Shown here: one piece after another, positions 34,276 through 37,650 of the stretch | How the letters are laid out: the number at the start of each line of letters is the position of its first letter | Numbering within the stretch: the first letter of the stretch is position 1 | NCBI GenBank assembly: GCA_030916885.1 | Contig: JAUPVT010000036.1 | Coordinates: 1-52,953, forward strand | Direction of reading: 5' to 3' | Length of the DNA stretch: 52,953 bases | Source of the DNA: Chlamydiota bacterium | GTDB lineage: Bacteria; Chlamydiota; Chlamydiia; Chlamydiales; Rhabdochlamydiaceae | Translations under genes and position numbers: made by a program | Notes under the pieces: generated by a model | What the model saw: the letters and a program-made list of their open reading frames with translations, nothing else | What the model was told of the DNA's origin: nothing | Databases searched by the model: none

Positions 34276-34593
34276 ATGAGTGAATTTATAAAAGAAATAT
34301 TAGAAAACGACTTTGAGAAAGAAACAAGTCAAGGGACTGTGTTGATTGATTTTTTTGCTGATTGGTGTGGCCCTTGTCGACAATTAACTCCTATTCTAGA
34401 AGAAGTTGCTAGAGAAATAAAAGAGGTGAATTTTATCAAGATAAATATTGATGCTGCTCAAAACGTAGCAGCTCGTTTAGAGATTACTTCTATTCCTACA
34501 TTAGTTTTATTTCATAAGGGGAAAAAAATAGATCAAGTTACTGGTCTAATAGAAGCAGATGCTCTAAAAATATTTCTTACAAAAGTAAAATAG
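34276..34593 (+). CDS. trxA: Thioredoxin
   Basis: Cytosolic dithiol oxidoreductase, 105 residues. Active site ADWCGPCRQLTPI with C31 and C34, the cis-proline loop ITSIPTLVLF, and the GLIEADALKIFL C-terminal helix. AAGGAG at 34261-34266 before ATG 34276. Corresponds to CT539 and resumes the CT536-551 gene series interrupted after 6332. Confidence 0.96.
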   Translation: MSEFIKEILENDFEKETSQGTVLIDFFADWCGPCRQLTPILEEVAREIKEVNFIKINIDAAQNVAARLEITSIPTLVLFHKGKKIDQVTGLIEADALKIFLTKVK

Positions 34594-34630: not shown

Positions 34631-36784
34631 CTACTTAATCCAATGTAATACATCTCGAACAATAGACCAGCGCTTTTCTTGAGAAGCTGCAATTTCTGTT
34701 TTGCCTTTCACCCAAAGATCATATTGCTTTTCTGTAAATCCTTGGTTGTTTTTTAACTCTAACCATTGATTAAGGTAGTTGAGAAACTTAGGACTATCTG
34801 TATTAATGGCATAACCTAAAGTATCTATTCCAACTGCAGGACTTGGAATTACAATACGATAATTTCGATGTTTTAAAATCCATGCAAGAGCTTGCTGTTC
34901 TTCCCATAGTAAAGCTGTCTGTTTTCCTTTTACAGTAAACTCTTCAAAGTGGTCCAAGTAAATAATCCTGTCGGTAGGGAAGCTCTCATGAGCTACTTGT
35001 TCATAAGAAGATCCTTTAAGCACGGCAATTTTTAAATCTGGATTATTAAGGATTTTTTCCATAGAAGAAAATCTTTTTCGCATTTTTTCTTCTGTAACCA
35101 AAATTAATCTTGCATCTAGATAAGATTTAGCAAAAGACAAGTTTCTTAGTCTCTTTTCATTCATGCTTAACGCAGACATAGCAATATCATATTTCTTTCC
35201 TTCTATATCCGAAATGACATTATTATAAGAGAGAGGCACTAATTCTAATTTACAGCCAAGATCGTAAGCTAATTCATAAGCAAAGGCCATATCATATCCG
35301 ACTAAATGATTGTTCACATTATAAAAGCAAAAGGGGGCTGCATTAGGATAATAACCCACTCTTAAGGTTTTAGTAGCTAATATATGATCAAAAGCATCTC
35401 CTTTAAAAGGAATTGATGGAGGGATCGTTTTATAGATCTTTACAGGAATGGTAGAGGTAATTGTTAATTCATAGACGCTTTTAGCATCGTTTTTAATAGT
35501 TGGTAGTGGATTAAAAGATTTAAGAATAAAGAATAGGATAGCCATAGGAAGTAGGGTGAAAAAAGTTTTACTAATGATTCTATTCCATCTAAAAAGCAGC
35601 ATATTACGACAAGAAAGGGTGATAAATAAAGAAAGTGAAGTAATTTGCATAGCAGACAACATGGACTGAAATCCAGAGGTAAAGGGGAGAGTGGTCAAGT
35701 ACAAGTTAATCGCATTAATCGGCAGGCCTAAGGAATCTAGAATGAAGGTTAAACTATTAATCCAAGAGCCTAGTCCAACTGATCCTAAATTCGTCAAAAA
35801 GGTAGTTGCAAATAATTCAATTTGGGAAGAAAAGCCCAGAGGCAAACCATAGAAAATAGATAAGAAAAATACAAATAAGGTAATGAAAAGAGCTCCTAGG
35901 GGTAAATTAAAGACAACAGATACAGTTCCTTGTATTTGTGTTTGAGCTTTCTCATCTGTAGGATCAATAATGGCTGTTTCTTTTTTGAGCAGTTCAATGA
36001 TATAGGGCAAGCAAACAATGACTACATTTGTCGTATAAGCCAGTACTAAGATAGGCAGCGTTTGTTGTAGCCATTTATAAGCAGGGATAGAAGTTAACAT
36101 GCTTGTAAGTCTAGGGAAAATCCAAAATATAATTGAACAGGTTCCTAAAAGATATAAGATTACATAGGTACTGACTTGTTTAACGGTAGAAAGTTGAATG
36201 GTACCTACTTGGTTAGCTATAATTAAAAAGGTTCCAATTGGTGTAATACGAGCAATCCAAGCTGTAATTCGTGTTAATGCGCTTACTAAATTTTGTAAAC
36301 CATTCATAATTACATCTTTCTCTTTGAGATGGATCAATGCAATTCCAATCAGGAGAGAAAAAATTACGATCGCAGGAACAATGTTATTAGTTAGATCGTA
36401 AAAAATATTATCGGGAATGAGCAGCTCTGCAAAGTTCAAATGAGGCGTATCACTAGAGATATAACCAGATATTTGAGGGCTACTCGAACGAGGAAATAAA
36501 TGAGAAACCGTATAAACCATTAAAATATTAATAGTCCAAGCTAAACTAATAAAAAAGGCACCGCGTTTTACAATTAATTTACCTTGAGAAGAACTTAGCT
36601 GTCCTACTCCATGGATGATAGCTCCAATTAAATAAGGGATAGCTGTAACTTTGAGGAGTTTGATATATGCAGATGCGTAAGAGGCAAAAACATCGCATAA
36701 ATCGCCCAGGAATAGGCCAAAAAGAATCCCAAACACTGTGGCGATTGCCATTTGGAAAGCTAAAGAAATCTTAAATAAACGCAT
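34631..36784 (-). CDS. Dicarboxylate/amino-acid:cation symporter fused to a solute-binding protein domain
   Basis: 717 residues in two parts. Residues 1 to about 425 resemble the sodium:dicarboxylate symporter (GltP/GltT, SDF) family with about eight membrane segments; the usual serine-rich and NMDGT motifs appear only in degenerate form (AYTTNVVIVCLP, QGTVSVVFNLPLGALF). After a last hydrophobic segment (LLPMAILFFILKSF) comes an extracytoplasmic SBP family 3 domain, about 465-717: TLRVGYYPNAAPFCFYNVN, GYDMAFAYELAYDLG, KYDIAMSALSMNEKR, AVLKGSSYEQVAHE. The binding domain would sit in the periplasm attached to the carrier. Likely an amino-acid importer; substrate unknown. ATG 36784. Uninterrupted frame, so not a sequencing fusion by appearance. 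Confidence 0.85.
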   Translation of the reverse strand: MRLFKISLAFQMAIATVFGILFGLFLGDLCDVFASYASAYIKLLKVTAIPYLIGAIIHGVGQLSSSQGKLIVKRGAFFISLAWTINILMVYTVSHLFPRSSSPQISGYISSDTPHLNFAELLIPDNIFYDLTNNIVPAIVIFSLLIGIALIHLKEKDVIMNGLQNLVSALTRITAWIARITPIGTFLIIANQVGTIQLSTVKQVSTYVILYLLGTCSIIFWIFPRLTSMLTSIPAYKWLQQTLPILVLAYTTNVVIVCLPYIIELLKKETAIIDPTDEKAQTQIQGTVSVVFNLPLGALFITLFVFFLSIFYGLPLGFSSQIELFATTFLTNLGSVGLGSWINSLTFILDSLGLPINAINLYLTTLPFTSGFQSMLSAMQITSLSLFITLSCRNMLLFRWNRIISKTFFTLLPMAILFFILKSFNPLPTIKNDAKSVYELTITSTIPVKIYKTIPPSIPFKGDAFDHILATKTLRVGYYPNAAPFCFYNVNNHLVGYDMAFAYELAYDLGCKLELVPLSYNNVISDIEGKKYDIAMSALSMNEKRLRNLSFAKSYLDARLILVTEEKMRKRFSSMEKILNNPDLKIAVLKGSSYEQVAHESFPTDRIIYLDHFEEFTVKGKQTALLWEEQQALAWILKHRNYRIVIPSPAVGIDTLGYAINTDSPKFLNYLNQWLELKNNQGFTEKQYDLWVKGKTEIAASQEKRWSIVRDVLHWIK

Positions 36785-36888: not shown

Positions 36889-37650
36889 CTAACGTATATC
36901 TGTTTTGGGCTCAGCGATTTCCATAGGGTATATATTTTCTTTTGAAGAAAGAGAATTGTAAGAAGCATTTGCTTGAACCACTTCTATTTCAAAAGTCAAA
37001 AGAGAGTTAGGAGGAAGATTATGATGCATCTTATAAGCAAAATCGGGATGAATATAGATAGTGCGTTTTTCTCCTTCTTTCATACCGATTAAACCTAAGC
37101 GCAATCCTGTAATAATTTCATCGAGAAAAAGCACTTCTTTATTAGAGTCACTGAAAATAGAACCATCTAGAAAGTGTCCTTTATATTGTACCAAAGGAGA
37201 AAAATGTGATTGTATTGCTTCACCAGTGCCTATTTTCTCTATACGATACTGAACCTTGCCATTTTCTATACATACGACTTCTGTATCTGCTGCATTTTTT
37301 TTAAGGAAGGTTTCGGCTTTTTCTAAATTCTCTTTGGACTCTTGCTCAAACGCTAATTCTTTGGCAGCAACAATTGCTTCTACACACTCATTTTCTGTCA
37401 TAGGGGATTCTTTCCCATCCGCAGCCTCTTGTAGTCCTTTGATAACCTGTGCCAGATCAAGCTTGACCTTACCATTTTTTTCTAAGTCTTGTTGAATCAA
37501 ATTTTTCCCAATCAAATGCCCAAAAGCCCGGGAAAGCTTTTCAACTTCATCGTGATGAATAACTGATTCACAAGTAGGGCTTTCTTGACAAAGCGCAGCT
37601 TGTGACATAAATAGAGCACAGGCTAATAAGAGACATTTTTTTGACTTCAT
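36889..37650 (-). CDS. mip: Mip-like FKBP-type peptidyl-prolyl isomerase
   Basis: Periplasmic or surface prolyl isomerase. Signal peptide MKSKKCLLLACALFMSQAA followed by LCQESP; a FKBP_N dimerisation domain (about 35-125) and the FKBP domain (about 140-232) with VQYKGHFLDGSIFSDS, GLRLGLIGMKEGEKRTIYIHP and LLTFEIEVVQ. Several aromatic residues of the canonical catalytic pocket are replaced (IFSDS instead of VFDSS), as in other chlamydial Mip. 253 residues. GAGG before ATG 37650. Synteny with CT541; follows aspS after 51 bp. Confidence 0.92.
   Translation of the reverse strand: MKSKKCLLLACALFMSQAALCQESPTCESVIHHDEVEKLSRAFGHLIGKNLIQQDLEKNGKVKLDLAQVIKGLQEAADGKESPMTENECVEAIVAAKELAFEQESKENLEKAETFLKKNAADTEVVCIENGKVQYRIEKIGTGEAIQSHFSPLVQYKGHFLDGSIFSDSNKEVLFLDEIITGLRLGLIGMKEGEKRTIYIHPDFAYKMHHNLPPNSLLTFEIEVVQANASYNSLSSKENIYPMEIAEPKTDIR

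Follow-up and report, generated by a model that had tools for sequence, protein, structure and literature searches.

Secondary transport that depends on a substrate-binding protein (SBP) was known earlier from the TRAP and TTT systems, and in 2025 SBP-dependent secondary transport of the elevator type, single-chain fusions included, was described for TAXI-GltS (PMC12344293). That study ended on the question of whether something inherent in elevators permits partnership with an SBP, and further SBP-dependent classes would serve as the test (PMC12344293). In the SDF family of elevator carriers the critical residues have been defined (GltPh numbering): N310, M/S311, D/E312 and D/E405 for Na+ coupling, L311 and N405 for H+ coupling, and T314, D394, R397 and N401 for aspartate binding (PMC12668577). 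The first-pass annotation of the gene described here treated a binder tethered to a secondary carrier as mechanistically unusual, but elevator carriers that work with binding proteins have precedents: TRAP is one such case and TAXI-GltS, with its fusions, is another (PMC12344293).

The gene is located within a window of 52,953 nucleotides (the whole stretch of DNA analyzed) from a Chlamydiota bacterium. The open reading frame is on the minus strand, starts with ATG, has no internal stop and encodes 717 amino acids (Table 1). A Pfam search matched residues 8-378 to PF00375 (SDF; E=4.6e-42, 144.9 bits against a gathering score of 27.9) and residues 474-692 to PF00497 (SBP_bac_3; E=1.1e-20, 74.1 bits, far above the cut-off). 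Six additional divergent fusions produced both matches again, so that seven members in all are above the cut-offs. The initial description of an SDF-like carrier followed in one frame by a complete SBP family 3 domain was thus confirmed by the domain search that had been proposed as its check, and the minus strand was added to it. A search of NCBIfam returned several binding proteins for amino acids alongside GltP and DctA, all below threshold, and therefore a specific name for the protein is unjustified; the annotation of a Pseudoalteromonas relative is the generic NCBI name "cation:dicarboxylase symporter family transporter". Prediction of the whole chain with AF2, modeled as a single chain with 74 relatives in the alignment, gave a pLDDT of 84.4 and a pTM of 0.75, and a model of an alphaproteobacterial relative (45 sequences; pLDDT 83.6, pTM 0.77) contained the identical set of elements. 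In both models the SDF helices with two hairpins are followed by an extra transmembrane helix, TM9, and then by the SBP. An assembly or read error fusing two genes, a possibility that would have undone the initial description, is hardly conceivable: nothing was found in its favor, each of the six genomes that represent the genus has the identical 717-amino-acid frame with the same start, and dozens of assemblies made independently, from two phyla, show the frame uninterrupted.

Table 1. Features of the fusion gene and of its neighbors. Plain positions refer to the window; residue numbers refer to the 717-amino-acid protein; locus counts of neighbors include some genomes fetched twice.
Feature	Position	Strand	Basis
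Fusion gene: SDF carrier, TM9, SBP_bac_3 and tail (717 aa)	34631..36784	-	
SDF domain, residues 8-378, formed by eight TM helices, re-entrant hairpins HP1 and HP2, and a broken TM7	35651..36763	-	Pfam, AF2, Foldseek
HP1 tip, residues 252-256 TNVVI, at the site of the serine motif of unfused SDFs	36017..36031	-	Alignments
TM7 break, residues 292-297 FNLPLG replacing N-M-D-G-T	35894..35911	-	Alignments
TM8 face, residues 366-381: D394->G370, R397->Q373, N401->S377, D405->I381	35642..35689	-	Alignments
Extra TM9, residues 400-424, bringing the C-terminus outside	35513..35587	-	Alignment, AF2
Extracytoplasmic linker (predicted), residues 425-463	35396..35512	-	AF2, alignment
SBP_bac_3 domain, residues 464-692, two-lobed fold	34709..35395	-	Pfam, AF2, Foldseek
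R545, at the position of the arginine that binds the ligand carboxylate in amino-acid SBPs	35150..35152	-	Alignment to 5t0w
C-terminal tail, residues 693-717, conserved RWSIxRNVLHW motif	34634..34708	-	Alignments
FKBP-type isomerase (Mip-like), upstream neighbor	36889..37650	-, same strand as fusion	Adjacency conserved, 72 loci
Thioredoxin-like trxA, convergent downstream neighbor	34276..34593	+	Conserved in 59 loci
BshA-like genes beside the fusion	L221:3696-4907, L216:3806-4960, L215:3749-4909, L223:349-1449, others		

The carrier part of the protein has the whole SDF fold. In addition to the Pfam match, the AF2 model includes helical TM1-TM6, HP1 (residues 235-273), a broken TM7 (279-292/297-311), HP2 (318-352) and TM8 (358-392). 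Foldseek comparisons with SDF structures gave TM-scores of 0.6-0.73 of target length overall, including 0.71 for 9bgz and 0.73 for ASCT2 (8qrs). The signature positions were compared in 76 fusions and 37 unfused SDFs, the latter mostly from the same bacteria. The two serines of HP1, present in all 37 unfused proteins, were found in 0/76 fusions; N401 was retained in 1/76 versus 37/37, R397 in 2/76 versus 20/37, and an acidic residue at position 405 in 0/76 versus 30/37, while an acid at position 394 was present in 4/76 fusions. The full Na+ coupling set was found in 0/76 fusions and 6/37 unfused SDFs, and the full H+ set (L311 and N405; position 92 was unscored) in 0/76 and 3/37; because just 6 and 3 of the unfused SDFs qualify, these two counts alone are weak discriminators, and the contrast between the groups is carried by HP1, N401 and position 405. 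The N-M/L-x-G motif of TM7 was absent from all fusions examined. A pairwise alignment can pair N293 of the 717-amino-acid protein with N310 and the multiple alignment does not, but D312 and D405 are lost whichever TM7 alignment is used. The residues expected of an acidic amino acid or dicarboxylate carrier (HP1 serines, D394, R397 and N401) are therefore not those of the fusions, and the early remark that the carrier core lacked clear substrate motifs proved correct for the whole family. Near the carrier site Q285, T369, Q373 and S377 are kept family-wide; since other polar residues are conserved in place of the signatures, the site has been rewritten and has not simply decayed.

These comparisons leave the term "symporter", as the carrier was first called, unsupported. 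An ordinary Na+/H+ symporter of acidic amino acids, with the SBP raising its affinity as proposed for TAXI-GltS, could be expected from the fold and the Pfam family that the fusions share with SDF symporters, and TAXI-GltS provides a precedent (PMC12344293). Nonetheless, this explanation is distinctly unlikely in view of the counts for both coupling sets, R397, N401 and the HP1 serines, and of the loss of D312 and D405; it is all these residues that define coupling and aspartate binding in the family (PMC12668577). The source genome includes three more SDF carriers, all unfused, and for this reason the fusion supplements the ordinary SDF carriers and does not replace them. A very divergent unfused SDF from the same genome (G000:C53:574-1674, locus L004) forms the longest branch of the SDF tree. 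When all SDF copies of ten fusion-bearing genomes were collected, the unfused frames were of 394-462 amino acids (one of 642) and scored 228-449 bits, the fusion frames were of 704-956 amino acids and scored 96-171 bits, and no third kind was found.

The C-terminal part has the two-lobed fold of SBP_bac_3, and its Foldseek match to AncCDT-1 (5t0w) reached a TM-score of 0.92 with an rmsd of 1.9 Å. R545 is at the position of the arginine that holds the ligand carboxylate in LAO/HisJ-type amino-acid SBPs. It is an arginine in 60/74 fusions and in 38/41 of the closest ones, and this alignment makes it likely that the ligand of the 717-amino-acid protein bears a carboxylate. The arginine is lost in the Simkania-like clade and in 5/6 of the gammaproteobacterial-type rows of the alignment (from genomes whose copies group with those of Pseudoalteromonas and Halioglobus in the SDF tree), so either the ligands of these proteins are different or their binding is weakened. 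The position of the amino-group aspartate (D161 in LAO) is occupied by E628 and is variable across the family. The ligand is probably an amino acid or a related organic acid. The best solved relatives of the domain include cyclohexadienyl dehydratases, which raises the alternative that it is an enzyme of the cyclohexadienyl or arogenate dehydratase type, or else a vestigial SBP. However, AncCDT-1, which gave the highest TM-score, is no enzyme but an ancestral binding protein for amino acids; at the position of its ligand aspartate the fusions have E, S, G, T or A, a variability unlike that of a catalytic residue; and purifying selection acts on the domain, which argues against a vestige. We consider both versions of this alternative very improbable.

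SBP_bac_3 proteins normally partner polar amino-acid ABC importers; the statement in the first-pass annotation that they also serve TRAP systems was mistaken, as TRAP binding proteins are of the DctP and TAXI types, not SBP_bac_3. The tethered SBP could then serve a separate system such as an ABC permease. The draft source genome (94% complete), which has one free SBP_bac_3, includes only four BPD_transp_1 permeases, arranged in two pairs of 270-313-amino-acid frames that look like peptide-type or similar pairs, not like GlnP. Moreover, SBP and SDF have remained in one chain and have diverged together, and service to another system is thus highly improbable.

Two features went unmentioned in the initial description, the TM9 helix between the domains and the RWSIxRNVLHW tail. 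TM9 is present in every aligned fusion and missing from the unfused SDFs in the same alignment. Lying between the domains, it makes an outside position of the SBP possible. On average, a sequence has 2.43 K/R but 0.12 D/E in the loop between TM8 and TM9, and a net acidic charge in the segment that follows TM9; by the positive-inside rule the SBP domain is predicted to be placed outside the inner membrane by TM9. The tail shares 46% identity with that of the 717-amino-acid protein over all members, which equals the value for the carrier and is higher than that for the linker. This motif lies beyond the SBP fold and is shared by Chlamydiota generally and, in part, by proteobacteria; a docking or membrane-surface helix is a possible role for it.

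The fusion is not a chlamydial oddity. It was found, either whole or truncated where a contig stops, in 53/61 genomes of the source family and in 18/173 other Chlamydiota; in one chlamydial family (f4), with small, near-complete genomes of 1.0-1.4 Mb, all matches were weak and to unfused proteins. A scan of named genomes identified further carriers among Rhabdochlamydiaceae, Simkaniaceae and Parachlamydiales MAGs, and in the alphaproteobacteria Reyranella and Rhodospirillales URHD0017; gammaproteobacteria are represented as well, with plasmid records of Halioglobus and Pseudoalteromonas. Within Pseudomonadota the fusion was detected in at least 6 of 398 genomes of a spread sample, one of them a deliberately chosen center, and in at least 21 of 296 genomes of one order, both counts being lower bounds with few candidates scored per genome. 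In the SDF-domain tree all 76 fusions were on one side of a branch and the 37 unfused SDFs on the other (SH-aLRT 99), and in the SBP-domain tree the 74 fused domains were separated in the same way from 14 free SBPs (SH-aLRT 99); both are unrooted trees from quick searches, with some long branches, and their fused rows were recruited with a fused query, so that fusions keeping canonical motifs could exist elsewhere. SDF and SBP distances were correlated (r = 0.88; no permutation above 0.23). The placement on a single side in both trees, together with this correlation, is consistent with a single ancient fusion followed by common descent. A phage origin was rejected because phage matches cover single domains only, and so was a plasmid origin, the two full-length matches to plasmid records being gammaproteobacterial. 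Tandem or paired copies of the fusion were observed in several genomes (L114, L119, L118, L043 and L245), which suggests paralogues with different ligands. Within the genus, dN/dS (simple NG86) was 0.04-0.07 for the whole gene, 0.05-0.08 for the SBP and 0.014-0.05 for the carrier part, the most strictly conserved portion; the fusion is under purifying selection (dN/dS of about 0.05), as are both of its domains.

In the source family the fusion gene is flanked by the Mip-like FKBP gene and trxA (Table 1) and is also near aspS/hisS. An FKBP gene adjoins even the most divergent chlamydial copy (L055). The conserved FKBP/trxA setting marks vertical inheritance. Metabolic neighbors provided no clue to the substrate in the loci compared. 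In Simkania-like genomes the fusion is between a SnoaL/ketosteroid-isomerase-like secreted protein gene and an alpha/beta hydrolase gene (10 loci; L046:2440-2997, L053:5111-5998), with the SnoaL-like gene 4 bp upstream of the fusion and the hydrolase gene overlapping it downstream. In eight gammaproteobacterial-type genomes, genes for BshA-equivalog glycosyltransferases are directly beside the fusion. Bacillithiol was dropped as a substrate clue from this linkage after a search of twelve genomes, including eight in which bshA is the neighbor, found no BshC. The panP gene beside one fusion copy was rejected as a clue because it adjoins panBC there and belongs to the pan locus. On the Halioglobus plasmid pRR3-57 a gene for a TAXI-TRAP-binding-protein-like product (L125:3254-4528) adjoins the fusion but is on the other strand.

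The reading that we prefer, with a probability of roughly 0.6, is that the SBP catches a carboxylate ligand outside and hands it over to a rewired elevator carrier. The tethered SBP would close on the ligand outside the inner membrane and dock on the outward-facing SDF carrier, the ligand would be released to the rewritten site lined by TM7, HP2 and TM8 (where the conserved polar residues lie: Q285, T369, Q373 and S377), and the elevator movement of the SDF fold would carry it inward. We infer the ligand class, the hand-over and the direction of transport. The SBP would provide affinity and kinetic direction, and the earlier suggestion that the binding domain took over recognition, at least its first step, fits this reading. 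As the fusions lack the residues known to couple Na+ or H+, facilitated uptake, or coupling through residues so far unrecognized, appears more likely than ordinary Na+ symport. An uncoupled SBP cannot itself drive accumulation, and downhill import is plausible where an obligately intracellular bacterium lives in a host rich in nutrients, an argument that does not extend to free-living relatives. The same losses could be read in another way. As every canonical coupling and substrate residue of the carrier is gone, and SBP_bac_3 domains have sensor roles in other proteins, where they are joined to kinases or the MltF transglycosylase (distant matches here), the protein might be a ligand-gated sensor or regulator in which the SBP senses an external amino acid and the SDF part is a gated pore or signaling module without net transport. 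This is unlikely, however: the modeled carrier keeps both hairpins and the broken TM7, its strict conservation is that expected of a working transport core, and there is neither a signaling domain in the protein nor a conserved regulator among the neighbors.

If uptake by SBP hand-over is correct, the glutamate-transporter fold can do without the sodium and substrate residues that are its signature, and chlamydial endosymbionts have an extra route of nutrient uptake. Whether the fusions form a further, SDF/SLC1-based class of binding-protein-dependent elevator transporter, with the canonical substrate and ion sites dismantled when the SBP joined, first recognition provided by the SBP and coupling absent or novel, is in our judgment evenly balanced. 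No published description of SDF-SBP fusions was found in the open-access literature; annotated records display the architecture, but as far as can be told it is unstudied.

The closest known proteins are those of the SDF/DAACS family (GltPh, GltTk, DctA, GltP and SLC1; TC 2.A.23, PF00375), with which the fusions share the whole fold of TM1-8, HP1, HP2 and broken TM7. They differ by the addition of TM9 and the SBP, by forming a separate clade, by the absence of the Na+/H+ coupling sets, and by replacement of the HP1 serines and N401. Extant members of the uncoupled glutamate-transporter clade ExtInt/AncInt likewise do not have complete coupling signatures (PMC12668577; 9bgz, 9bh0), and the AncInt-clade structures 9bgz and 9bh0 were the best SDF match in the PDB in both sequence and fold. 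AncInt, however, keeps the aspartate and sodium sites, both of which are gone from the fusions. Similarity to an ancestor may reflect only its consensus-like sequence, and the identity of the best PDB carrier match as an "ancestral uncoupled aspartate transporter" was not accepted as evidence of mechanism. ABC importers with permease-fused SBPs, such as GlnPQ and OpuA, share the covalently tethered SBP, but the fusion has neither an ATPase nor the ABC permease fold. TRAP and TTT systems resemble it in combining an SBP that gives affinity and direction with an elevator carrier driven by an ion gradient; they differ in that their membrane and SBP families are unrelated to those of the fusion and are usually separate subunits. 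TAXI-GltS likewise unites a binding protein with an elevator-type secondary carrier, in some cases within one chain (PMC12344293), but consists of GltS (ESS family) with an N-terminal TAXI SBP, whereas here an SDF carrier has a C-terminal SBP_bac_3 behind an added TM helix. Neither a DctM, TctA or GltS membrane part nor an SBP of the DctP, TAXI or TctC type was recognized in the protein, which matched only SDF and SBP_bac_3. SDF carriers are among the best-studied elevators, and one with a covalently fixed SBP would directly test the question raised for TAXI-GltS (PMC12344293). The permanent joining of the two parts, together with the loss of the usual sodium and substrate residues, suggests a separate mode of pairing a binding protein with an elevator carrier, present in many amoeba-type chlamydiae and in some proteobacteria.
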